This document shows positions 6,847-30,984 of a DNA stretch of 64,000 nucleotides, piece by piece. How positions within the stretch are numbered: the stretch's first letter is position 1; each line of letters begins with the position of its first letter. The notes below the pieces were generated by a model. That model did not search any database and was not told the DNA's origin. It saw only the letters and a list, made by a program, of their open reading frames with translations. Origin of the DNA: Deltaproteobacteria bacterium (GTDB lineage Bacteria; Desulfobacterota; Desulfobulbia; Desulfobulbales; Desulfurivibrionaceae); assembly GCA_013349295.1 (NCBI GenBank), contig DUZW01000017.1, positions 1 to 64,000 on the forward strand, read 5' to 3'. The translations under genes and the position numbers were made by a program.

Positions 6847-7075
6847 GGGGACCTCCAGTTTCTGGTTCTGTCGTGATGTGATTATTGCGTAAATATTATT
6901 ACAAAATTTTCAAGAACTGTTACGGAATAAGCATGATTTTCTTGAGCATGGTCGTTGTCGCTGAGACTGTTGCCGCTCACTCAAGTTTACAGGGCATGAT
7001 TATTTTCTTACAGCGGCTTATATACCTTTCCTGGCGGGATAATGCTAATCATAAATTGCTGATGGCCGGCTGCGC

Positions 7076-7618
7076 TCAATTCCCTTGGGGGTTGTTTTTT
7101 TCATAGCGGGAGACAGCACTGTAGAGGCGGATGTATATCTTCTCGGCCAGATTGTTCACCAGAGTTTCCAGGGCCTGTTTTTTGTGGGCATCGGTCTGGA
7201 GAGAATAGGTTTCCGCGAGGGCGAAATTATCCTGCCATGCAGTTTTGCCGGTGCTGGTTTCTGTGACGGTGTAACCAACGTTCAGGGTGGCATTGAGCGC
7301 CAAGGCTCGGTCTTTGGCGTCATAGGATCGACCGGTATAACTCACCGAGTTAATCTTGCCGTTTAAAACGTAATCCGCTTCCCCTGCGTTGTTCACCAGA
7401 GTGAATTGTTTGCTCTGGCCGAGCCAGTCCTGCAGGGCATTGTGGATGTCTGAGGCGAGCCTGATTTCATTGGTCGGGTTCGGCCAGAGAGGGATATGCA
7501 GCTTGAAAATTCTGCCTTGTTTCTCCGGCGGCAGCATATTTGGATTGTGGTAACCGCACCCGGATACAATCATCAGGAGAAGGAGCAGGCTCAAGTTTTT
7601 CAGGGTAAAGATCTTCAT
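7076..7618 (-). CDS. lptE: LPS-assembly lipoprotein LptE
   Basis: 180 residues with a signal peptide (MKIFTLKNLSLLLLLMIV) ending in a lipobox SGC, so it is lipidated after cleavage. GYHNPNMLPP and the long beta-rich body match LptE, the plug lipoprotein that with LptD inserts lipopolysaccharide into the outer membrane. The position directly after leuS on the same strand (110 nt) is the usual arrangement in deltaproteobacteria. LptE sequences are weakly conserved, so the call rests on lipobox, length and context together. Confidence 0.82.
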   Translation of the reverse strand: MKIFTLKNLSLLLLLMIVSGCGYHNPNMLPPEKQGRIFKLHIPLWPNPTNEIRLASDIHNALQDWLGQSKQFTLVNNAGEADYVLNGKINSVSYTGRSYDAKDRALALNATLNVGYTVTETSTGKTAWQDNFALAETYSLQTDAHKKQALETLVNNLAEKIYIRLYSAVSRYEKNNPQGN

Positions 7619-7728
7619 GGTCTGATTCCGTGGGTGTCTGGCGTCAGGCTAAAATGGGCATGTATTTAGGCTGAAAGCTAGATACTGAAATAACCTTCAA
7701 CTTCGGTCCATCCACCTGACTTGTTACC

Positions 7729-10203
7729 CTAAATCACTATATTGATCAGCTTGTTTTGTACCACAATCACCTTGCGTACAGGTTTTCCTTCCAGGAATTT
7801 TTGCACCTTTTCATCGGCCAGCGCCATCTTTTCAAGGTCAGCATCGTTGGTCCCCGGCGCAACTTGGAGCTGGCTGCGCACCTTTCCCTTTACCTGAACA
7901 ACAATGGTGATCGTATCCTCCATGACCGCTTTGTCATCGTACTCCGGCCAAAGCACTTCGGCAAGGGGGGTGGGGTGTTTTGTCAATTCCCAGAGTTCGG
8001 CGCAAAGATGCGGAACCATGGGGGAGAGCAGGGCAAGCATCGCCTCGATGGCCTTGCGGACCACTGCGGGATCAGGTGCTTCGCCGGTCTCGTTTCCTGT
8101 GAGGCTATACAGGGTGTTGGTCAGCTCCATCACCGCGCTGATGGCGGTGTTGAAATGGAACTTTGCCTCAATATCGGCCCCGAATTTGCGGATGGTCTGA
8201 TGGGTTTTTCGGTGCAAGGCGGAACTTGCCGCATTCATCTCCTGCGGCAAGCCGGAGGCGGGCATCGCAAAGACACCTATGTTTTCATCGACCAGACGAT
8301 ATACCCGGTTTAAAAAACGATAAGCCCCTTCAACCCCCTGATCGCTCCATTCGAGATCCCGTTCCGGAGGGGCGGCAAACAGGCTGAAGAGACGGACCGT
8401 GTCAGCCCCGTATTTTTCCACCAATTCATTGGGGTCAACCACGTTGCCCTTGGATTTGGACATCTTGGTGCCGTCCTTGATGACCATGCCCTGGGTGAGC
8501 AGGTTGGTGAAAGGCTCATCAATGGTAAGGTAGCCGAGATCACGCAGGACCTTGGTGAAGAAACGGGAGTAGAGCAAGTGGAGGATAGCATGTTCCACCC
8601 CGCCGATGTATTGATCCACCGGCAGCCAGTAATTACCTTTTTCTTTATCCATGGGTCCGTCGGTAAAGCGGGGGGAGACGTATCGGGCAAAATACCAGGA
8701 GGACTCGACAAAGGTGTCCATGGTGTCTGTCTCGCGCCTTGCCGGGCCGTTGCAAAGAGGGCAGGTGGTTTGGTAAAAGCTTTCCAGGGTGTGAAGCGGA
8801 GATTTGCCGGATTTGTCGAATTGGACATCGGTGGGCAGGCTGATGGGCAGATCTTTTTCCGGCACCGGCACTACTCCGCAGTGCGCGCAGTGAAGCATGG
8901 GAATGGGGGCGCCCCAGTAACGCTGACGGGAAATACCCCAATCGCGTAAGCGAAAGGTGGTGCGCTGACAGCCGAAGCCGCCTTTTTCCGCCGCCGCAGT
9001 GATTGCACCCTTGGCCTGATCGGAAGGAAGGGTGGTGAATTCCCCGGAGTCAACCATGATGCCGGGACCTTCGTGGGCTTGGGTCATGGTGGCCGGGGCA
9101 AGAGACTCGCCTTCGGGTTGCACCACGACCTTGATTTCAATCCCGTATTTCCTGGCGAACTCAAAATCGCGCTGATCATGGGCAGGTACTGCCATCACCG
9201 CGCCGGTCCCGTACTCCATGAGCACGAAATTGGCGACATATACAGGCAGCCTTGTTCCGGTAAAGGGATTGAGGCAGTAACCTCCGGTGAATACCCCCTC
9301 CTTTTCCATCTCGTCTTCCGGTTTTTGTCTCTGTTTTTCGATTTTGATCCGGGCAACGAATTCCTTGACCGCGTCTTCCTGGGGGGTGCCTCCGCTTAAT
9401 TCAATGGCCAAGGGATGTTCCGGGGCAATGGACATAAAAGTCGCACCAAAGATCGTATCCGGGCGGGTGGTGAAGATGGTAAGCGTTTTTTCGGAGTTTT
9501 CGACCTTGAAATGCATCTCGGCGCCAACGCTCTTGCCTATCCAGTTGCGCTGCATGGTGAGCACTTTTTCCGGCCAGCCCGTAAGCTTGTCGCATCCGGC
9601 CAGCAATTCCTCGGCGTAATCGGTGATCTTGAAGAACCAGCTGTTCATCTCCCGCGGCAGCACGGCATTGTCACAACGCCAGCAAGTGCCGTCAATGACC
9701 TGCTCGTTGGCAAGCACCGTCTGGCAGGTTTCGCACCAGTTGACCGTGGTCACCTTCTGGTAGACCAACCCCTTTTCGTACATCTTGATAAAAAGGAGCT
9801 GTTCCCAGCGATAGTATTTATCGTTGCAGGTGGCTATTTCTCGATCCCAGTCGTAGCTGAATCCCATGCGCTGCAACTGTTTTTTCATGTAATCGATGTT
9901 TTCGTAGGTCCATTTGGCTGGATGGGTGTCGTGCTTGATCGCCGCATTTTCGGCAGGCAGGCCGAAAGCGTCCCAACCCATGGGATGAAGAACGTTAAAG
10001 CCCTTCATCCGCTTGTAGCGGGCCACCACGTCGCCGATGGTATAGTTGCGGACATGGCCCATGTGGATGCGGCCAGAAGGGTAGGGGAACATCTCTAGAA
10101 GATAGTATTTGGGCCGCGCAGGGTCTACGTTTGCCGTGTAAGTGTTGTTCGCCAGCCAGTGGCTGCGCCATTTTTCTTCGATGGCCTTAAAATCGTATTT
10201 CAT
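7729..10203 (-). CDS. leuS: leucyl-tRNA synthetase
   Basis: 824 residues. It charges tRNA-Leu in the cytoplasm. Class I signatures are present: the HIGH-type HMGH at residues 47-50 in [17 protein letters not shown] and the KMSKS loop in [14 protein letters not shown] near residue 580. The CP1 editing domain ([13 protein letters not shown]) and a zinc-ribbon-like Cys pair set (CETC, CWRC) are visible, as is the C-terminal anticodon-binding domain ending LINIVI. No defect is seen. It heads a leuS-lptE unit. Confidence 0.98.
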
Positions 10204-10253: not shown

Positions 10254-11621
10254 TTATTCGGTTGATGGAAAATTATGCTGGGCAAGATTTTCAAAGGAGG
10301 TGAAGCGGTCAAGAAAGGCCAGCTCCACGGTGCCGGTTGGTCCATTACGCTGTTTGCCGATGATGACCTCGGCAATCCCCTTTCTTGGGTTATCTTCCGC
10401 CTTGTTATACACCTCATCCCGATAGATGAAGATGATCAGGTCGGCATCCTGCTCGATTGCACCCGATTCGCGCAGATCGGAAAGCTGTGGTCTTTTGTTG
10501 GGGCGGCTTTCCAGGCTGCGGTTCAGCTGGGAAAGAGCGATAACCGGAATGCTGAGCTCCTTGGCCATGGCCTTGAGGGAGCGGGAGATGTCACTGATTT
10601 CCTGTTCGCGGGACTGTGAGCTTGATTTGCCCCTCATCAATTGCAGGTAATCCACCACCACCATGCCGATGTTGTGTTCGGTTTTCAGGCGCCGGCACTT
10701 GGCCCGCATTTCCAGCACCGTGATGGCCGGGGTGTCGTCAATGTAGATGGGGGCTTCCGAAAGCATGCCCACAGCCCGGGTAAGCTTGGGCCAGTCCTGT
10801 TCCTTGAGAAAGCCGGTCCGTAAGCGTTGGGCGTCAACCCGACTGATGGAACAGAGCATACGCATGCCGAGCTGTTCCTTTGACATCTCAAGGCTGAAGA
10901 TCGCCACCGGAACTTTGTGGAGCAGGGCGGCGTTTTGGACCATGTTGACGGCCAGGGCTGTTTTGCCCATACTGGGACGGCCGGCCAGAATGATAAGGTC
11001 CGAGCGTTGCAAGCCTGCGGTCATCTTATCGAAATCGTGATATTCAGTGGGAACCCCGGTGATGTGTTCCTTGCGCTCGTAAAGCTGCTCGATGTATTTG
11101 AATGTGGTGGACATGACGGTCTTGAGCGAATGGTAGGACTGGCCGCTCTTGGCCCGGGAAATCTCAAAGACGGTTGTTTCAACGTCATCAAGGAGACCGT
11201 CGATATCATCTTGCTCCTCGTAGCAGCGACCGGCAATCTCGGTGCCGGTTTGGATCAGCCTGCGAAGGATGGCTTTTTCTCGGACTATTCTGGCGTAAAA
11301 GGCGATGTTCGCGGCAACCGGTACGATGTCGGTGAGGGTGGCAAGATAGGTGGGGCCGCCAATCGCCTCAAACCTGTTGTTGTCTTTCAGCAGGTTTGAA
11401 ACGGTGATGAGGTCAAGGGGTTCGCCACGGTCGAACAGGGTGATCATGGCGGAAAAAATGTGTTTATGTGCGTCGCGGTAAAAGTCTTCTTCGGTGAGAA
11501 TTTCTGCCGCCTTGGGCATGGCTCCCTGTTGCAGCATGATTGAGCCGAGAACGCATTGTTCGGCCTCAAGATTCTGCGGGGGCAGACGGTGGGTGGTGGA
11601 AGGGCCTGGTCCGGATTCCAT
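10254..11621 (-). CDS. dnaB: replicative DNA helicase
   Basis: 455 residues. DnaB is the hexameric 5'-3' helicase of the replisome. The N-terminal primase-interacting domain (PPQNLEAEQCVLGSIML) is followed by the RecA-like domain with Walker A GRPSMGKTA at residues 213-221, VVVDYLQLM (Walker B) and SQLNRSLESRPNKRPQLSDLRESGAIEQDAD. It is the last gene of the rpsF-rpsR-DUF2232-rplI-dnaB run. No strong ribosome binding site is seen before the ATG at 11621. There is no intein, although dnaB is a common intein host. Confidence 0.97.
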   Translation of the reverse strand: MESGPGPSTTHRLPPQNLEAEQCVLGSIMLQQGAMPKAAEILTEEDFYRDAHKHIFSAMITLFDRGEPLDLITVSNLLKDNNRFEAIGGPTYLATLTDIVPVAANIAFYARIVREKAILRRLIQTGTEIAGRCYEEQDDIDGLLDDVETTVFEISRAKSGQSYHSLKTVMSTTFKYIEQLYERKEHITGVPTEYHDFDKMTAGLQRSDLIILAGRPSMGKTALAVNMVQNAALLHKVPVAIFSLEMSKEQLGMRMLCSISRVDAQRLRTGFLKEQDWPKLTRAVGMLSEAPIYIDDTPAITVLEMRAKCRRLKTEHNIGMVVVDYLQLMRGKSSSQSREQEISDISRSLKAMAKELSIPVIALSQLNRSLESRPNKRPQLSDLRESGAIEQDADLIIFIYRDEVYNKAEDNPRKGIAEVIIGKQRNGPTGTVELAFLDRFTSFENLAQHNFPSTE

Positions 11622-11645
11622 GGATTATCGTTGGCTGTAATGGAG

Positions 11646-11665
11646 GGGGGCAGAGTTCTGCCCCC
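11646..11665 (-). repeat. perfect hairpin between rplI and dnaB
   Basis: GGGGGCAGA (11646-11654) and TCTGCCCCC (11657-11665) form a nine-base-pair GC-rich stem with almost no loop. There is no T run after it on the minus strand, so it is not an obvious terminator. It may adjust dnaB expression relative to the ribosomal protein genes, or protect the upstream message. Confidence 0.5.
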
Positions 11666-11764
11666 ATTCGTTTATCCTGCGTTCTTCCAAGGCCAAAGCA
11701 ATGGGATGGACGATGCGGCTAACGCGCCGTGGCCCAGATCTGTCTTCTGCTTGTGGACTAGGAA

Positions 11765-12217
11765 TTATTCCGCGGTCAGGGGAACGATTTCCACCGTGAT
11801 TTCCGCAGATATCTGGTAGCCGATCTTCACCGGCACCATGGTGACTCCCAGGGTCTTGATCGGCTCTTCAAGAACGATCTTTTTCTTGTCGATTTCAATG
11901 CCCAGTGCGGCCAGCTTTTCAGCAATGTCAGCGGAAGTGATGGAGCCATAAAGTTTATTGTCATCCCCGGAACGATGGGCAATGACCACCGTGGCTCCAG
12001 CCACTTTCTTGGCCAGGGATTCCGCTTCGTCACGCTGTTTTTTCTTCCTTGCCACAATGGCAGCCTTTTCCTTTTCCAGGGTGGTAAGGTTTGCCTTGGT
12101 GGCAGGCACGGCAAGAAGACGGGGAATCAGGAAGTTGCGGCCGTAGCCGTCCCTTACCTTAACAACATCGCCTTCCTCGCCAAGAGTATCAATGGTTTCT
12201 TTTAAAATGAGTTCCAT
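11765..12217 (-). CDS. rplI: 50S ribosomal protein L9
   Basis: 150 residues. The N-terminal MELILKETIDTLGEEGDVVKVRDGYGRNFLIPR is the L9 signature (given here only as recognisable blocks: KETIDTLGEEG, GYGRNFLIP). A long connecting helix rich in Lys/Glu (residues about 45-75) leads to the C-terminal rRNA-binding domain. The ATG at 12217 has GGAGG 7 nt upstream. It sits between the DUF2232 membrane protein and dnaB, the usual order in this group. Confidence 0.97.
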   Translation of the reverse strand: MELILKETIDTLGEEGDVVKVRDGYGRNFLIPRLLAVPATKANLTTLEKEKAAIVARKKKQRDEAESLAKKVAGATVVIAHRSGDDNKLYGSITSADIAEKLAALGIEIDKKKIVLEEPIKTLGVTMVPVKIGYQISAEITVEIVPLTAE

Positions 12218-12393
12218 GTTCTACCTCCGGTTGAACCCAGGCTTTGCCGGGATTCATTATTTCTGAAAAATGAAGACTCTGAAAAAGTCTCCAGTTTCAT
12301 TGTGTGTTTATTTGGAAGCCCTTTCTGTTGCTTTCGTCACCGTTAGCAACTGCTACGGCTCCTTATACCGTTCTGGTCATCCAGATGACGACA

Positions 12394-22452: not shown

Positions 22453-24087
22453 TCAGTCGGAGCGGCAGCGAAGGCGGGAGAGAGCCTCGAAAAAGTTGAA
22501 TCTGTCATCATGGTCACCGCTGTGGCAACGCTGGCAGGTGGCCATGGTCGGTCGCTCAGCTTTGGCATCCGTCGGTTGCAGGATGTGGGCACGGCAGGGG
22601 CCATGGCAGGATTCACAGCCGACCTGACGCAGATCATGGGCAAGGGCGAGCATTTCTTGGCCGGTCTGGGCGGCGGGGCCGGTGACGTGGCAGGGAAGGC
22701 ATTGCACATTGAACTGCTGTCCCTTTGCCTCCAAGGTGTCGTAGGCCGTGGCATGTTGGGTGCCGCGCCATTTCGCAAACTGAGGGGCATGGCAGCTGGT
22801 GCAGGCGTTGCTCCCGGCGTAATTTTCCGAAATGCCTTCTTGGTTCTTGCCGCTACTGTCTGATATTCTTGCTTTTACCGCAGCCTTGCCGATTCGGTTC
22901 ACCTCGGTGGTGGTTGCATCGACAATGGCCCGAACCGCCGGGTTGTCGGGCAACTCTTTCCTCATGGTCTCAAAATGATGACTGTAGGATGAGAACTGTG
23001 TGCGGTTGGCATTTCGTGTATTTTGTTCTACCGTGAGGCGGGCTATTTCCTGGTTCAACCTTTCGTGTTGTCTCGCCATGCTTTCATATGCGGCAAGAAC
23101 ATCGGGTTTATCCTTGAAAACAAGCTTCGGGTCTCCAGTTTTAAGGTAACGGCCTATCTGCCAACCGAGTCGGTCCAGCTCGTTTTTTTTCTCAAGCAGC
23201 AGATTCTCAGCGCCGGCATCTTCCCATTTTTTTGTCTGTTTGTTCCACCGCACCTCAAGAATGCCGATGGATTTCCCCTGCTGCTCGACTTGGGTGATCA
23301 GCGTGTTGTTAATCCGTTCCGGCACTAGATTGCCGGAGGTACTTCCGCCTTGCAGGATGAGATGTATTTCCGGATGTGTTTCGGCAATTTTTTTGTTTGT
23401 TGATGAGGGAAGGTTGGAAAGTAGGATCAGCAGGTCAACCCGTCCCTTCAGCTGGGAAATCTCCTTGGGGAGGACATCTTCCCAGGGAAGAATAACGGCG
23501 TTATCCTTTTCAGGCAGGAGAGATTCCGGGCCTTGGCCGGTGAGACCGATAACGCCTATGTTCACCCCGGCCATGCTGAGCAGGGTGTGTGGCTTGAAAT
23601 ATGGCTTGCCGTGGGTGCGGTTGACAAGGTTGGCACTCAGCCAGGGGAAATCCGATTTATGCTGGAGGGAAAGGAGGAAGGGCAGACCTGCGGCGAGGTC
23701 CTGTCTGGCAACGCCGACCGCGGCAAAAGACATCCTGTTGTAAGCCGAGACAATGCCCTGCGCCGTTGCGGTGAGCTGTTGGATTTGGTCGGGTTGTATT
23801 TTCTCCTCTTTAAAAAGCAAGGCGCCGCTGTCCAAGGCAAGCACCCCGTTTTTTTTCTTCCGCAAGTTTTCCAGTTGCTGTGCTTTTTTGGGCAGACCGC
23901 CCAACTGATTGCTTTTTCAGCCGCAAGGTTCGATTTCCCCCCGGACATCATTGGAGAAAAATATAGTTATATCGTGCGACCCCTTTGGCGGATTGCTTTC
24001 AGCCGATTTTTTTTCATCGGCCTCCGTGGTAATGGTAAGCGTGATGGAGACAAGAAGAGTAAGCAGCAAAAAAAATAATTTGTTCAT
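22453..24087 (-). CDS. selenocysteine-containing tetraheme cytochrome with 5'-nucleotidase (UshA-like) domain
   Basis: 544 residues when the TGA at 23917-23919 is read as selenocysteine (residue 57). The ATG at 24087 opens a signal peptide (MNKLFFLLLTLLVSITLTITT), so it is exported. Residues about 38-280 resemble the metallophosphatase/5'-nucleotidase fold; the block SNDVRGEIEPCGU is the EPCGC motif of this subfamily with U for the second Cys. Four CxxCH haem motifs follow: CTSCH (429), CLPCH (463), CESCH (491), CQRCH (518). A GGUCU-loop hairpin sits 12 nt after the UGA. Classic metal motifs (DxH, GNHE) are altered, so nucleotidase activity is doubtful; a redox role is inferred. rarA lies 27 nt upstream on the same strand. 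A TTG start at 23904 would lose the signal peptide and the motif. Confidence 0.85.
23888..23919 (-). promoter_or_regulatory. UGA selenocysteine codon with bacterial SECIS hairpin
   Basis: On the minus strand the TGA occupies 23919-23917. After 12 nt, TTGGGC (23904-23899) pairs with GCCCAA (23893-23888) around the loop GGTCT. Spacing and the GGU-containing loop match the SelB-binding hairpin of E. coli fdhF. The hairpin lies within coding sequence, as bacterial SECIS elements do. Confidence 0.82.
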
Positions 24088-24114: not shown

Positions 24115-25434
24115 TTATTTTTTTCTGTCTCGCAGCAGCTGTCGCCATTTTCCCAGCCGGTCACGAATCACCGCTTCATAGCCTCGGTTGGCGGGCTGAT
24201 AATAGACCTTTCCTTCAAGCTGGGTCGGTAAATGATACTGATCCACAAGGGCATGGGGGTCATCGTGGGCATACTGGTAACCCTGGCCATAGCCAAGATC
24301 CTTCATCAGCGAGGTTGGTGCGTTGCGGAGATGGAGCGGCACCGGCAGGCTGCCGGTGCGTTTGATGTCGTGCATCACCGTGTTGTAGGCTGCATAAACG
24401 GCGTTGCTCTTAGGGGCGGTGGCAAGATAGGTAACGGCTTGGGCCAGGGCCAGCTCTCCCTCCGGGCTGCCCAGGGTTTGATACGAGTTTCTGGCATTCA
24501 GGGCAACCATGAGGGCCTGGGGGTCGGCATTGCCTATGTCTTCCGAAGCGAAACGGATAAGGCGACGGGCCACGTACAAGGGTTCCTCCCCGGAGGCGAG
24601 CATCCGGCACAGCCAATACAGGGCTCCGTCAGGATCGCTGTCCCTGAGGCTTTTATGCAGGGCCGAGATCAGATTGTAATGCTCCTCGCCGTCCGCATCA
24701 TAGCGCAGGCTTTTGCGTTGGATGGCTTCTTCCACCGTGGTCAAGGTTATCTGTCGCTTGCCAGCGGCATCCGGTTCAGCGAGATTTGCGGCGATTTCCA
24801 GACTGTTCAGCAGGCTGCGGGCATCGCCGTCCGCAACCCTGATCAGGTGTGCGGCAGCTTCAGGCTCAAGGGATATCTGCCAGGAGCCCAGCCCTTGCTC
24901 CTTGTCCGTGATGCCACGCTGGAGAATGGTCTGTAGATCATCCGAGCCTAATGGTTCAAGGACCAAAACCCTGCAGCGGGACAGGAGGGGTGCGATAACG
25001 TGGAAAGAAGGGTTTTCGGTGGTTGCGCCGATCAGGGTCAACAGGCCGCTTTCCACATGGGGGAGGAAGGCATCCTGCTGGCTTTTGTTGAAACGATGGA
25101 TTTCGTCCACGAAAACAATGGTGGCGGTGTTGCGCTCATCCTTGGCGCTTTGGGCCTGAACCACTATTTCACGGATCTCCTTGACCCCGGACAGCACTGC
25201 GGAAAAGAAGGCAAAATCAGCTCCGGTTGTTTGGGAAAGGATTCGGGCCAAGGTGGTTTTACCTGTGCCGGGCGGACCCCAGAGCAGCAGGGAAGGCAGG
25301 TACCTCTGGCGGATGAGGCCCCGGAGAAGCTTGTCCTCGCCCAGCAGCTGTTTTTGTCCGACAAAGTCATCTATTGTTCGCGGACGCAGTCGTTCTGCCA
25401 GGGGGGCGATATGTGGGGCAGGGTGTCGGGCCAT
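24115..25434 (-). CDS. rarA: replication-associated recombination protein A (AAA+ ATPase)
   Basis: 439 residues. RarA (MgsA) is a clamp-loader-like AAA+ ATPase acting at stalled replication forks. Visible are PLAERLRPRTIDDFVGQ, Walker A WGPPGTGKTTLA, Walker B VFVDEIHRFNKSQQDAFLPH, sensor 1 GATTENPSF, and the C-terminal tetramerisation region with YLATAPKSNAVYAAY and HLRNAPTSLMKDLGYGQGY. All are diagnostic for the family. The start is the ATG at 25434. The exported cytochrome gene follows at once on the same strand. Confidence 0.95.
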   Translation of the reverse strand: MARHPAPHIAPLAERLRPRTIDDFVGQKQLLGEDKLLRGLIRQRYLPSLLLWGPPGTGKTTLARILSQTTGADFAFFSAVLSGVKEIREIVVQAQSAKDERNTATIVFVDEIHRFNKSQQDAFLPHVESGLLTLIGATTENPSFHVIAPLLSRCRVLVLEPLGSDDLQTILQRGITDKEQGLGSWQISLEPEAAAHLIRVADGDARSLLNSLEIAANLAEPDAAGKRQITLTTVEEAIQRKSLRYDADGEEHYNLISALHKSLRDSDPDGALYWLCRMLASGEEPLYVARRLIRFASEDIGNADPQALMVALNARNSYQTLGSPEGELALAQAVTYLATAPKSNAVYAAYNTVMHDIKRTGSLPVPLHLRNAPTSLMKDLGYGQGYQYAHDDPHALVDQYHLPTQLEGKVYYQPANRGYEAVIRDRLGKWRQLLRDRKK

Positions 25435-25561: not shown

Positions 25562-26362
25562 TTATGCCAGTAATACGGCAAGGCGGTCTGCCAGACGTTC
25601 CGCTGAAAAGATCAGGGATTCCAGGTCGAGAAAATCCAGAACCTGTCGGTCGAAAAGAATTTTGACCTTCGCGGGAAATCCATCTTCTGGTTCTGCCTCC
25701 CAGTAGATAAGATATTGCGGAATCTTGGGCAGGACCGGGATGATGCACCCGAGTGTGGCCGATGGCGAGGGGTGAGCAACGCCTCCCAGGCGAGCGCATG
25801 CCGCCATGATTGTTTCTACGGGAAGATGGCTGAAAAGTTCCGCTAATCTGTTTTCGCAGTAGGTGGCAAGGGTTCTTACCTTGGAAATCGAGTTCGGCAG
25901 GGTTTCCAGCCCGAGCCAGTCCCAAGCAGGATCTGTTCCCCCCTGGGAGTGGATGTAGTTGTAGATCAGAATTTGGTCCCTGGGATCATCCGGGGTATGA
26001 CCGTCGAGAAGAATCCCCTGTCGATTCAGGAGTACCTGCTGGTCCAGAAACAAAAAAGACAACGTCTGGTTGTTCTCGCCACAGAGAGTGGCGCCCAAGG
26101 GGGCGGCGATCAGGGCGAAGTCCAGGGCGGAAATCTTGTCTTTCAGGTGTTCGACCAGGGCAAGGTCGCGTTGGCTGGAAAGCTCCTCCAGGGCTGGTCC
26201 TTGATTTTGCAATTCATTCAGGCCGGTGGTGTCAAGATAAGGACATTTGTCAAAGGATTCGCCACTTTTGGCAACAGCTGCGGAAAAGGCAAGGCAGCTT
26301 GGGTAGCCGCATTGCCTGCAATTGTTCTTTGGGGTTCGTTGGACAATCTCGAAGGGAGTCAT
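25562..26362 (-). CDS. Fe-S domain protein with DUF3786
   Basis: 266 residues. The N terminus has NNCRQCGYPSCLAF and a fourth Cys in FDKCPYL, spaced C-x2-C-x4-C-x16-C, the 4Fe-4S pattern (PF04060 type) also found in the corrinoid/iron-sulfur protein of the acetyl-CoA pathway and in RnfB-like proteins. The rest (about residues 65-260) matches DUF3786, an uncharacterised domain common in anaerobes; features are YNYIHSQGG and YLIYWEAEPEDGFPAKVKILFD. It starts 7 nt after the XXXCH-type gene, so it is the last gene of the FHA-kinase-phosphatase operon. A redox role is likely; the substrate is unknown. Confidence 0.82.
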   Translation of the reverse strand: MTPFEIVQRTPKNNCRQCGYPSCLAFSAAVAKSGESFDKCPYLDTTGLNELQNQGPALEELSSQRDLALVEHLKDKISALDFALIAAPLGATLCGENNQTLSFLFLDQQVLLNRQGILLDGHTPDDPRDQILIYNYIHSQGGTDPAWDWLGLETLPNSISKVRTLATYCENRLAELFSHLPVETIMAACARLGGVAHPSPSATLGCIIPVLPKIPQYLIYWEAEPEDGFPAKVKILFDRQVLDFLDLESLIFSAERLADRLAVLLA

Positions 26363-26989: not shown

Positions 26990-27754
26990 TTAATAAAAAA
27001 TTACCAAGGCGGTGATATTGTCGCGTCCACCTTGCTCATTGGCTGCCGTTACCAGAGTTTCGCTGGCTTTTTCCGGGGAGGAGGAATTGAGGAGGATTTG
27101 TTCAATCCTGGTGTTGTCAACCATGTTCCATAAGCCATCGGAACAGAGAAGCACCCTGTTTCCCGGGCGCAAAATGTTTTTGTGGTATTCCGGACCCTCA
27201 TGGGAGTGAAAGCCTATGGCCCTTGTAACCACATTGCGAGGGATCTGGATTTCCTTGTTGTTTGCATCGGTTTTATGGATGTACGTCACAGAGGTATGAT
27301 CGGTTGTGATTTGTTTCAGGCTGCCCTTTTCAAAGAGATAACAGCGAGCATCCCCGACGTGGCAAGTGTGGAGACGGTTTTCGTCAAGAAGGCAGGCAAC
27401 CATGGTGCAACCCATGCCCTGCATTGTCTTGTCGGCGGCGGCTTTGCTTATTACTGCCTGATTGGCATGATTGAAGGCGTCCAGCATGCTTTGATGGATT
27501 GCCTGGTCGTTGCCTCGGATTGTACGGATTTTTTCTTCCGAGAGGAATTCGAGCAGGGATTCTATGGCCAGCTGGCTGGCGACTTCGCCAGCATTATGAC
27601 CGCCCATGCCATCGGCTACCACGAAAAGATGCCGGTTGCGAAGTGTGCAAAAGCTGTCTTCGTTATGGCTGCGAACCATTCCGGTGTCCGTGCGTCCATA
27701 AAACGTAATGTTTCTGGGGGTGCTTTTGTAGATTTTTTTTAAAAAACTGAACAT
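26990..27754 (-). CDS. PP2C-family serine/threonine protein phosphatase
   Basis: 254 residues. The PP2C (PPM) motifs are complete: [27 protein letters not shown] with metal-binding Asp, [31 protein letters not shown] and [13 protein letters not shown]. Such bacterial enzymes (Stp/PrpC) dephosphorylate Ser/Thr residues and counteract Hanks-type kinases. It follows the kinase gene by 33 nt on the same strand, so kinase and phosphatase are very likely a functional pair. The N terminus ([15 protein letters not shown]) is basic; no membrane segment is present. Confidence 0.93.
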
Positions 27755-27787
27755 TGTGAACGTCCCGTTGTATTCCCGCTCGGGAAA

Positions 27788-30226
27788 TTACTCAAAATGG
27801 AGTTGGTAAATGACCATCCAGAAAATAATGGCTCCATCTTTTCGTCCGGCAAGAAAGGTGTGGGGCTTTGGCCCGTGGGCAAGGCTGTAAATGCCGTCGC
27901 CTCTGCCGTCGAGAATGGCGAGGCATTCCGCGCTGTTGCTGTCCCAGAGCTTGATGATGTCATCTTCGCAACCGGAGATCAGGGTCTGGTTGTCCTGTAA
28001 AAATAATGCGGAAGAAATGGTTTCGTCGTGGGCTTTGATCGTTTTGAGGCAGCGTCCGGTGTGGTGTTCCCATACTTTCATGTGACGGTCGGTGCTGGCC
28101 GAGACAAAGCGCTGGCCGTCAGGCGAATTTGCCAGAGAGATAACCGGCATGGCATGGGCTTCGATGATTCTCGTGCATTCTTTTCCATTGGAGTCCCAGA
28201 AGCGGATAGAGCCGTCTTCGCTGCCTGTTACCAGATTCAAACCGTTAGTGGTAAAAGTGATGGCGCGGATAGCGCCGCCTTCCTTGATGGAGGTGGTCAT
28301 TTCCGGACCGGTTGCAAGTTTGCGTATTTTCATGATGCCGTCTGCCCCGCCGGAGGCCAGGTAACGACTATCTTCGTTGAAGGCAAGGGCATGTACCGGA
28401 CCGTTGTGGGCTGATTCGCTTGATTCCTGGGTGCCGGTCTTTGTGGAAAAGAGGCAGACGGATCCATCTTGGGCGCCTACGGCCAAATGTTTGCCCTTGG
28501 GGCAGATAGCCATCGCTGCTATGGAACTGCCGCCTTTTCCTAAAACAATGCCCTGCTGTGTGGAGGCGCCGAGGTCGTGAAGGATGATTTTCCCTCCGGG
28601 TCCGGCGGCAACAAATTTTTTCGTGTTCGGGATATGGGCAAGATGGGTTGTTGGTCCTTCTTCACCTTTCAGGGTCAGAAAACGTTGGACCCCAAGCACT
28701 TTCTTTTTTGTCCCGACCCGGAGCAGTCTATCGTAGACCATATTGAAAATTTTGTCTTTTTTGTAGCTGCTGTTTTTCCAGGCCGTCATCAGTATGTCAT
28801 GGCAGGGTCCATAGCGTTTGTTTTCCAGATGATCAAGGATATTGCGCTGCACTGAGAGGTGGAGCTGTCCTTCTCGAAAAATTTCCAGGGAGTTCTTTGG
28901 CAGACACAGCCGGAATTCGGGAAATTGCTGTTTTTCGAGCACGATCTTGTCGTCCACCATACTTCGTTTTACCGCCGTCTCCATCTCGGTAAGCCAAGGC
29001 GATGTGGCGCCTCGTTTTTTTGCCGTTTCAATCTGTCGGATAATTTTTCCTGTTTTTGTCCCTGAGCGCCAGTTGAGGAGAATCATATTGTAGACGGCTT
29101 CGGGAAGCATCTCGTTTATTTCAAGCGTCTTGTTCAGGCAAGCGGCAGCCTCTCTGCTTTCTCCCAGCTCAAAAAGGGAGACGGCTCTGTTGTTGAGGCT
29201 GTCCGCCCTGAGATCGATATTACTGAGTTCCGCATAGGGGCAGGCGGTGTTAAAGGCGGCGGTGTAAGCTTCGTTTAAGGCCGCCCGCATCTCGGCAAAA
29301 TTCTGATAGCGGTCATCTGGATCATAGGCAACGCTTTTGCGTAAAACATCTTTGAGTACAGCGGGGAATTTGACATCCGGCGCAGCGGGAGTCGGGGTGG
29401 GTATTTTATGCTTAACCGCATTATTGACAAATGGCTTTTTGCCGCAGAGCATGACCCAGAGGCAGAGGCCGAATGAAAAAATATCCGTTCGCAGGTCAAC
29501 GGTGTGGGCGTTGCGCAGTTGTTCCGGGGAGGCATAGCCGATGGTTCCCCGAAAACCGATGGTTGCCTCATGATCTGCTGTGTCGATATTAGGAACCTGA
29601 CCATCGCCTTTTTCCTTGTCCCCATTGGCAAGAAGGATGCCGAAATCGGTTATTTTCAGCAAGGAATTTTTGGTGATCATGATGTTCTGGGGTTTGATGT
29701 CGCGATGGATAATGCCACGTTGGTGGGTAAATTCCATGCCGTGACAGAATTGTATGGCAAGAGACAGGGCCGTGCGGAGATTTCTGCAACGACCGGCATT
29801 GATCCAGTCGGAAAGATTTCCTCCATCGATAAATTCAATGAAGAGATGGGGGATCTTGTTGATGCCAAGAACATAAAAACAGGAGGCGACATTGGGGTGC
29901 ATGCCCATTCGGACCCAACTGTTGGCTTCTTTCAGTATCCGGCGCATGCCCTCACGGTCCGCAAGGACTTCAGGCCTGGGAGCTTTGATCGCGACCTTGA
30001 TTTTCCAGCCGAGATGTTCAGAAATGTAAACGTTCCCCATGGACCCAGACATTACATGTTCGATATGGTAACGGTTGAGAATGGTATCGCCAGGGGACCA
30101 GACAGGAACTTGGGGGATTCCAGGGCAAGGCTGGGGTTGTAAAGCTTCAGCGGATGGCTCACCTGGGATGCCGGGTGAGACGCCTTTCTTCCACTTGTTT
30201 ATTTGGTCAAAGAGTCTGGAAAGCAT
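27788..30226 (-). CDS. Hanks-type serine/threonine kinase fused to a seven-bladed WD40 propeller
   Basis: 812 residues from the ATG at 30226, 8 nt after the FHA gene stop; the frame is open further upstream but there it overlaps the FHA gene. The kinase domain (about 50-330) has VAIK (Lys81), HRDIKPQN (Asp176) and DFG (Asp194-Gly196); the glycine loop is MSGSMGNVY. A helical, TPR-like region follows (about 335-470). The last 270 residues hold seven WD40 repeats, for example HLAVGAQDGSVCLFS, RYLASGGADGIMKIR, NLVTGSEDGSIRFWD and TLISGCEDDIIKLWD, enough for one closed propeller. No transmembrane segment is seen, so it is a soluble kinase. Targets are unknown; the FHA protein next door is a natural candidate. 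Confidence 0.9.
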   Translation of the reverse strand: MLSRLFDQINKWKKGVSPGIPGEPSAEALQPQPCPGIPQVPVWSPGDTILNRYHIEHVMSGSMGNVYISEHLGWKIKVAIKAPRPEVLADREGMRRILKEANSWVRMGMHPNVASCFYVLGINKIPHLFIEFIDGGNLSDWINAGRCRNLRTALSLAIQFCHGMEFTHQRGIIHRDIKPQNIMITKNSLLKITDFGILLANGDKEKGDGQVPNIDTADHEATIGFRGTIGYASPEQLRNAHTVDLRTDIFSFGLCLWVMLCGKKPFVNNAVKHKIPTPTPAAPDVKFPAVLKDVLRKSVAYDPDDRYQNFAEMRAALNEAYTAAFNTACPYAELSNIDLRADSLNNRAVSLFELGESREAAACLNKTLEINEMLPEAVYNMILLNWRSGTKTGKIIRQIETAKKRGATSPWLTEMETAVKRSMVDDKIVLEKQQFPEFRLCLPKNSLEIFREGQLHLSVQRNILDHLENKRYGPCHDILMTAWKNSSYKKDKIFNMVYDRLLRVGTKKKVLGVQRFLTLKGEEGPTTHLAHIPNTKKFVAAGPGGKIILHDLGASTQQGIVLGKGGSSIAAMAICPKGKHLAVGAQDGSVCLFSTKTGTQESSESAHNGPVHALAFNEDSRYLASGGADGIMKIRKLATGPEMTTSIKEGGAIRAITFTTNGLNLVTGSEDGSIRFWDSNGKECTRIIEAHAMPVISLANSPDGQRFVSASTDRHMKVWEHHTGRCLKTIKAHDETISSALFLQDNQTLISGCEDDIIKLWDSNSAECLAILDGRGDGIYSLAHGPKPHTFLAGRKDGAIIFWMVIYQLHFE

Positions 30227-30234
30227 CCGATAGA

Positions 30235-30984
30235 TTAACTGAACCTGATTTTCACACTCTTGATTTGAATTATGTCGCCTTTGCGTAAAAGACGTTCTTC
30301 TTTGATGATCACATCGTTGAGTTTGGTGTTTGCCCACGAACGTTGGGGCACGAGGTAATATTTGTCTTTCTTGCTCACCACGTAGCACTGGGTCTTGCTG
30401 ACAAGCCAGCCCGGAATGATCATGTCGCAGGCAGGGTCTTTGCCGATTTTCACACTGCTTTTCCCGTCAAGGGAGAGCGTGTTTGGCGCGGCTGCGCCTT
30501 CAATTACCGTGAGTCTGTAAACCTCGTTTGCGGAAGGTGCCGCAGACTGAATGGACTGGGAGGCTGCCTGTTGCCGGGGGGAACTGACAAAAACAGTTGC
30601 TTCGTCATCAATATCCATGGCCGTGGCGTAGGATGATGAAGCATGCTGTTCATCTGCCGTCGACTGGATCAAACGAAATTTCCCAATAAAAATAACATCT
30701 TTTTCTGTTATCGGCACTTTTGATGCAATCTTTTTTCCATTTACGGTGGTGCCGTTGGTGCTTTTTAAGTCTGCAAGATAATGGCGGCCATCGCGGAGTT
30801 CGAGGGAGGAATGGTGTCTGGATATGGCCGTGTTGTCGATGACCACATCCGCATCGGGGCTGCGCCCGATAATGAGTTTGTTCCCTTCATGGGTGGTGAA
30901 ACTGGTGATCACCCGGTCATTGAGCATAATGGTCCAATCTGATTTGGTGTAATCTTCAAGATTGATCGTTCCGTCTTGCATCAT
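30235..30984 (-). CDS. protein with two FHA domains
   Basis: 249 residues. The first FHA domain (about 35-110) is intact: LIIGRSPDADVVIDN, SRHHSSLE, NGTTVNGKKI. The second (about 165-249) keeps VKIGKDPACDMIIPG and NTKLNDVII but has SKTQCYV where FHA domains have SRxHxxI, so its phosphothreonine pocket may be altered. The linker (about 115-160) is rich in Ser, Ala and Thr, a possible kinase target. FHA domains bind phosphothreonine. The gene is first in the minus-strand run FHA, kinase, phosphatase, XXXCH, Fe-S/DUF3786. Two ATG codons occur at the start; either may be used. Confidence 0.9.
   Translation of the reverse strand: MMQDGTINLEDYTKSDWTIMLNDRVITSFTTHEGNKLIIGRSPDADVVIDNTAISRHHSSLELRDGRHYLADLKSTNGTTVNGKKIASKVPITEKDVIFIGKFRLIQSTADEQHASSSYATAMDIDDEATVFVSSPRQQAASQSIQSAAPSANEVYRLTVIEGAAAPNTLSLDGKSSVKIGKDPACDMIIPGWLVSKTQCYVVSKKDKYYLVPQRSWANTKLNDVIIKEERLLRKGDIIQIKSVKIRFS

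Follow-up and report, generated by a model that had tools for sequence, protein, structure and literature searches.

The main question raised by this locus is whether an UshA-like gene interrupted by an in-frame UGA encodes a full-length selenoprotein and, if so, what such a protein could do. In the window (i.e., the whole 64,000 nt stretch of DNA analyzed here), the gene is located on the minus strand, where a frame of 544 residues starts with the ATG at 24087 and ends with a TGA at 22455-22453. Codon 57, a TGA at 23919-23917, is the single in-frame stop before the terminal one. The product shows a hydrophobic N-terminus followed by SNDVRGEIEPCG-U-KSNQLGGLPKKA, and a long domain separates this stretch from the four CxxCH motifs. 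In the standard ORF list the gene starts only at TTG 23904, yielding a protein of 483 aa in which the signal peptide and the CGU motif are lost. Both the long frame (its start, the TGA at codon 57, the length and the four CxxCH motifs) and this truncation by automatic callers had been proposed in an earlier sequence-only reading, and both were found as described. The features of the locus are as follows.

22453..24087, minus strand: UshA-like gene of the NF041198 family, 544 aa, with a predicted selenocysteine at residue 57 (frame; 657 bits, profile positions 5-518 of 519)
24019..24087, minus strand: putative N-terminal export signal, residues ~1-23, MNKLFFLLLTLLVSITLTITTEA (read by eye)
23917..23925, minus strand: Cys55-Gly56-Sec57 motif, TGC GGC TGA (sequence; C-G-[U/C] in 55/55 rows of the alignment A3, which were selected by motif)
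23888..23904, minus strand: bSECIS-like hairpin, 6 bp stem, GGUCU loop, 12 nt past the UGA (tracks UGA among relatives)
23242..23976, minus strand: metallophosphatase-fold domain, residues ~38-282, metal ligands lost (AlphaFold2 model, Foldseek, ligand check)
22498..22815, minus strand: tetraheme cytochrome c554-like domain, residues ~425-530 (PF13435, 53.9 bits, cut-off 20.8)
22789..22803, minus strand: haem motif 1, CTSCH (invariant in A3)
22687..22701, minus strand: haem motif 2, CLPCH (invariant in A3)
22603..22617, minus strand: haem motif 3, CESCH (invariant in A3)
22522..22536, minus strand: haem motif 4, CQRCH (invariant in A3)
24115..25434, minus strand: RarA/MgsA-like ATPase gene, upstream, 27 nt before ATG 24087 (identity by eye; recurrent in relatives)

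The codon found at position 57 in relatives bears directly on how this UGA is read. Among 395 genomes of the phylum, 69 had a match over the cut-off of the NCBIfam model NF041198, and of the 30 loci returned from this search, which include the window's own and one under the cut-off, 28 carried exactly one internal TGA, one carried none and one carried two. An alignment of the window protein with 41 hits from 40 loci showed UGA at codon 57 in 39 of the 42 rows (38 CGU and one CPTU), Cys in two and Arg in one, and since 39 rows share it, the UGA is not a chance occurrence. Four other assemblies, 70-73% identical to the window gene (L091, L092, L093 and L095), have TGA rather than TGC or TGT at the same codon, so that a sequencing error is unlikely and was rejected. 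The alternative that the UGA is a real stop, with the gene either decaying or expressed as a shorter protein from TTG 23904 that has neither signal peptide nor CGU, would agree with the TTG-started ORF that a mechanical ORF finder yields, but this TTG coincides with the first bases of the hairpin, haem attachment requires export, and all but two of the 30 returned loci have the one internal TGA. Moreover, distant relatives keep UGA at the same codon with frame and hairpin intact, and because of this conservation a real stop or pseudogene was rejected; we regard it as the least probable of the readings considered here.

A contig search for more distant relatives, with seed patterns that favour NDV[RH]GE and VGCE.CHG, revealed the exchange that is expected of a selenocysteine site. 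Among the best 80 of at least 283 relatives, 28 loci carry UGA and 51 carry Cys, while one is missing the N-terminal domain or motif. On a tree of 87 rows built by a quick method (the window, 75 of these 80 loci and 11 of the 41 earlier hits), the UGA and Cys states change six times, and five of the changes are forced by well-supported branches. A UGA form titled Bifidobacterium breve (L117) looks mislabelled or contaminated and was left out of the tree; the same appearance is given by a record titled Comamonas sp. (L126), which was placed inside the Myxococcus clade. One genome, MAG MM_PC_MetaG.mb.92, has copies of both kinds, L098 with Cys and L139 with UGA. L098 retains a GGTCT loop and a 7-bp stem, and thus looks like a recent Sec-to-Cys change that left a fossil SECIS. 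Further variants include L128, which keeps EPCGC without both glycines of the Gly-Gly pair, and L067, a haem-bearing member in which Ser-Gly-Arg replaces Cys-Gly-Sec and which represents a natural variant without the redox pair. L090 contains a tandem (6937-8136 and 10927-12315) in which a haem-less CPTU form adjoins a haem-bearing CGU form. The CPTU copy does not reach the cut-off of NF041198 (221.8 of 275) or that of NF049981, the model for a second UshA-like family (78.1 of 140), and the two copies are possibly a working pair.

The hairpin TTGGGC-GGTCT-GCCCAA begins 12 nt past the TGA (23904-23888) and consists of a 6 bp stem and a 5-nt loop, as the sequence-only reading had described. A script that anchored every row on the codons of its first Gly-Gly pair found a stem of at least 5 bp at this fixed place in 59 of 64 distinct UGA sequences vs 6 of 52 Cys sequences, and a GGTCT loop in 49/64 vs 3/52. 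The hairpin therefore goes with the UGA forms and not with the Cys forms, although the associated p of 1.4e-15 overstates independence, since the stem model was picked after the window hairpin had been seen and the rows are related to one another. The failures include two UGA rows, L072 and the CGU copy of L090, whose anchoring was wrong; L067 (Arg), L128 and L169 (no match to the motif pattern) and three duplicate UGA sequences were part of neither this test nor the energy comparison below. Where Gly-Gly is in its usual position (63 UGA sequences), the inner two pairs close in 61, with 38 in the register of a 5-nt loop and 23 in that of a 6-nt loop; the outer pair 12-28 of the former 38 is C-G in 15, U-A in 13, U-G in one and unpaired in nine. 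When folding energies were compared over 48 nt, the UGA forms had no advantage (mean -11.5 kcal/mol vs -14.8 kcal/mol for the GC-richer Cys forms; z against synonymous recoding -0.74 and -1.18, respectively), in a comparison where two Cys rows, L157 and L160, were read from the wrong Cys codon.

All four selenocysteine genes that would be expected to accompany such a gene were found over cut-off in the window genome (2.9 Mb, 66 contigs, 88% complete). These are selC, encoding a tRNA-Sec with anticodon TCA (69.2 bits; controls over cut-off 5/14), selB (359 bits; controls 2/14), selA (619 bits; controls 1/14) and selD (378 bits, G000:C1:204965-205888; controls 2/14). The selD gene contains an in-frame TGA itself, and SelD is therefore probably a selenoprotein in this organism. 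We also examined the 41 genomes of 42 loci chosen from the best 80 of at least 283 relatives for selA and selB. One or both were over cut-off in 21/21 genomes with a UGA form (selA in 18, being missing in L103, L125 and L132; selB in 20, being missing in L112) and in 8/20 genomes where only a Cys form was found. Two cable bacteria of Candidatus Electronema (L101 and L104) have a Cys form and neither selA nor selB over cut-off. Taking into consideration the UGA/Cys exchange, the hairpin that follows the UGA and the presence of the sel genes, the selenocysteine reading first made from the sequence gains strong support, and codon 57 is almost certainly decoded as selenocysteine. Six other UGA sites in the window pass a loose Sec filter with Cys nearby; their translations, by eye, resemble non-coding frames.

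With residue 57 assigned in this way, the N-terminal domain can be considered. An AlphaFold2 model built from 55 sequences (pLDDT 87.9, pTM 0.83) was compared with known structures by Foldseek, and the 50 matches listed include UshA, CD73, 3ivd and YunD, with E from 8e-19 to 7e-16 and TM-scores by query length of 0.37-0.47; the best UshA-type structures are at E of about 1e-18. The alignment A3, which contains the window protein and 54 of the 80 loci (best 80 of at least 283) picked by motif pattern, was used to follow the metal site. L128 (EPCGC, second Gly missing), L164 (PCGC) and L169 (no N-terminal domain) were left out of it on purpose. D47, H49, D89 and N128, which with the help of the 3ivd alignment we take to be the dinuclear metal ligands, occur in 30, 6, 14 and 0 of the 55 rows, respectively; all four occur together in 0/55, and the window protein keeps D47 only. 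The ligands are thus not conserved and the phosphatase centre is gone, in agreement with the earlier description of the metal motifs as altered. This bears on the reading that a haem-tailed protein has stayed a phosphoesterase, whether a 5'-nucleotidase or another kind, for which the shared UshA/CD73 fold and weak profile matches to UshA (PRK09558, 39.7 bits) and SoxB (36.4 bits) could be cited. These scores are far from the cut-offs of 600 and 550 bits, respectively, and N128 was found in none of the sequences. An active nucleotidase was rejected on the metal ligands, and phosphoesterase activity of any kind appears very unlikely.

While the metal ligands have been lost, the loop that follows strand one still carries the Cys-Gly-Sec/Cys pair. 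C55, G56, C/U57, G63 and G64 are the invariant N-terminal residues in the 55 rows of A3, although part of this invariance is by choice, since rows were picked with the motif pattern. From its position in this loop, the pair may sit in the old metal cleft. A pair fixed in all 55 aligned sequences also fits a ligand pair, and it could hold a metal such as Cu, Ni or another heavy one in the empty phosphatase cleft, in which case the protein would be a metal sensor, trafficker or reductase and not a thiol/selenol enzyme; residue 130 is Asp in 43/55 and Glu in 12/55, and residue 86 is Asp in 43/55. However, no third invariant His, Cys or Met was found in the N-terminal domain in A3, and selenocysteine-for-cysteine exchange is typical of redox sites. 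We therefore regard metal binding by the pair as improbable, and a redox role as the preferred reading of Cys55-Sec57.

The invariant residues of the C-terminal tail in the 55 rows are G425, the four CxxCH motifs, H445, L452, V489, E492, G496 and H501. The four CxxCH motifs together with H445 and H501 are compatible with covalently bound bis-His haems. Nine of the 41 hits in 40 loci are without CxxCH, and eight of these nine carry UGA, including the CPTU form of L090. The CGU domain can therefore stand without haems, and haems are not needed everywhere for the role of the N-terminal domain. These same forms bear on a further alternative, namely that the haems carry current between cytochromes while the CGU domain only docks or regulates. 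A convergent neighbour that adjoins the gene in 8/41 maps (cluster 5), a multihaem cytochrome-b-like membrane protein by eye, would suit such a relay, but a CGU found in relatives without a haem domain must have a role of its own. A pure relay role is in our judgement rather unlikely; it and metal binding by the pair are the main rivals of the selenol/thiol redox reading.

Among other neighbouring genes, one encoding a RarA-like ATPase (by eye) is located upstream in 11/41 maps, including that of the window (cluster 2), and the window copy matches a gene in 19/80 named loci (best 80 of at least 283). A DUF1573 gene is located upstream in 11/80 of these named loci (best 80 of at least 283), all of them Cys forms (L135, L146, L151, L152, L157, L158, L159, L160, L165, L166 and L170, which represent planctomycete, anammox and armatimonad records and two unclassified ones). 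The DUF1573 gene overlaps by 4 nt in three loci, and one small ORF lies between the two genes in L165. All 11 DUF1573 proteins score above cut-off with PF07610 (27.4 to 117.5 vs 26.1 bits) and contain a C-x-C motif, which is CGC in 10. DUF1573 as a universal partner is unsupported, since none was found in the window genome (88% complete). The recurrent neighbours name no substrate. Elsewhere on the minus strand of the window, PP2C phosphatase-, WD-repeat Ser/Thr kinase- and FHA-domain-like genes (by eye) lie side by side at 26990-30984 and likely represent a phosphosignalling cluster; a protein encoded at 25562-26362 has an N-terminal CRQCGYPSC cluster motif (by eye) and is perhaps iron-sulfur or corrinoid related.

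Computational evidence supports the decoding of the UGA, the fold, the lost metal site and the haem motifs, and from these we infer a redox cycle, its direction and the type of substrate. The SelB/bSECIS pathway would decode the UGA at codon 57, and the complete 544-residue member of the NF041198 family would be exported. Its N-terminal UshA/CD73 fold would be without a metal centre and would present Cys-Gly-Sec (Cys-Gly-Cys in other lineages) after the first strand, while the C-terminal domain would bind four c-type haems. The CGU pair may then cycle between the selenol/thiol and the Cys55-Sec57 selenenylsulfide states, exchanging two electrons with a sulfur, selenium or disulfide substrate in the periplasm, and the haems may deliver these electrons to, or receive them from, further cytochromes of the periplasm or membrane, one by one. 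The potentials of C-G-C pairs lie close to those of protein disulfide isomerases and in the range covered by haems of this type. With regard to direction, we are inclined towards a reductive one, with an oxidised sulfur, selenium or disulfide compound as the substrate. Taken as a whole, from the decoding of Sec57 to the redox enzyme, the proposal of a periplasmic oxidoreductase that couples a selenol/thiol pair to haems on a former metallophosphatase scaffold is one that we consider reasonably probable, its function being deduced from the parts described above.

A broader suggestion, which we put forward tentatively and with rather less than even confidence, is that the PCG[U/C]-tetraheme proteins may represent one undescribed enzyme class, in which a metallophosphatase fold without metals was turned into a periplasmic selenol/thiol-haem oxidoreductase. 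Sec forms of this class would be found chiefly among anaerobes of the Desulfobulbales type, and Cys forms among Myxococcota, Planctomycetota (anammox bacteria included), Verrucomicrobiota and Armatimonadota; in the planctomycete type the partner could be the DUF1573 protein, exchanging electrons via its own C-x-C. The interest of the family lies in its unexplained and widespread design, in which a CGU/CGC pair and four haems accompany a dead phosphatase domain, and the combination of a dead fold with Cys-Gly-Sec/Cys beside four haems makes for a concrete and testable functional proposal. Moreover, the Cys forms, including those of named Myxococcus and Corallococcus strains, should be expressible without selenium machinery.

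Comparison with known systems showed that the selenoprotein family itself is already known. UshA-like CxU selenoproteins are tabulated in PMC2398784 (2008), PMC9312934 (2022) and PMC13188914 (2026), the last of which names NF041198; in the first, the row for UshA-like proteins reads 76, 20, 92 in the part available. The window gene adds a member to an existing selenoprotein family rather than founding one, because NF041198 and the accessible parts of PMC9312934 and PMC13188914 already list the family, which also answers the question left by the sequence-only reading as to whether it had been listed. Neither haems nor the domain architecture of the UshA-like family are mentioned in the accessible parts of PMC2398784, PMC9312934 and PMC13188914; the word cytochrome is absent from the main text of PMC2398784, and the accessible main text of PMC12013277 contains neither UshA nor cytochrome. 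No literature on a haem-bearing UshA-like selenoprotein was suggested beyond the papers named here, within a search to which subscription journals were mostly external, and no statement of a function for the widespread NF041198-type family was found in the accessible portions of the literature searched.

The closest known system is NF041198 itself, the "UshA-like (seleno)protein" model (UshA_like_PCGU), against which the window protein scores 657.2 bits (cut-off 275). The model calls for PCG followed by Sec or Cys, and the window protein has EPCGU, with TGA at codon 57; the profile spans the haem region too and nothing excludes membership. Among four Cys forms, those of a cable bacterium (635.6 bits) and Scalindua (283.1 bits) are over the cut-off, and those of Myxococcus (228.1 bits) and of a Verrucomicrobiota record (246 bits) are under it; since Myxococcus xanthus L129 and Verrucomicrobiota L147 fall below, the wider family extends past the reach of the model. 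NF049981 (UshA-like (seleno)protein family 2), whose motif is given as CxxU in the table available from PMC13188914, shows a weak likeness over residues 40-289 (44.6 bits), but the window protein is under its cut-off of 140 (37.1 bits in the genome scan). The UshA/CD73 5'-nucleotidases (1ush, 3ivd) share the fold, whereas their metal ligands are not conserved in the window family. The SoxB thiosulfohydrolases (TIGR04486), which are periplasmic, are distant profile relatives; membership was rejected on score, and the metal site is missing in the window protein. Finally, the C-terminal tetraheme domain belongs with the cytochrome c554 family, with a PF13435 score over the gathering cut-off (53.9 vs 20.8 bits), but the window domain is fused to a pseudo-phosphatase and reaches just 38.6 bits against the CycA equivalog, with its cut-off of 400.
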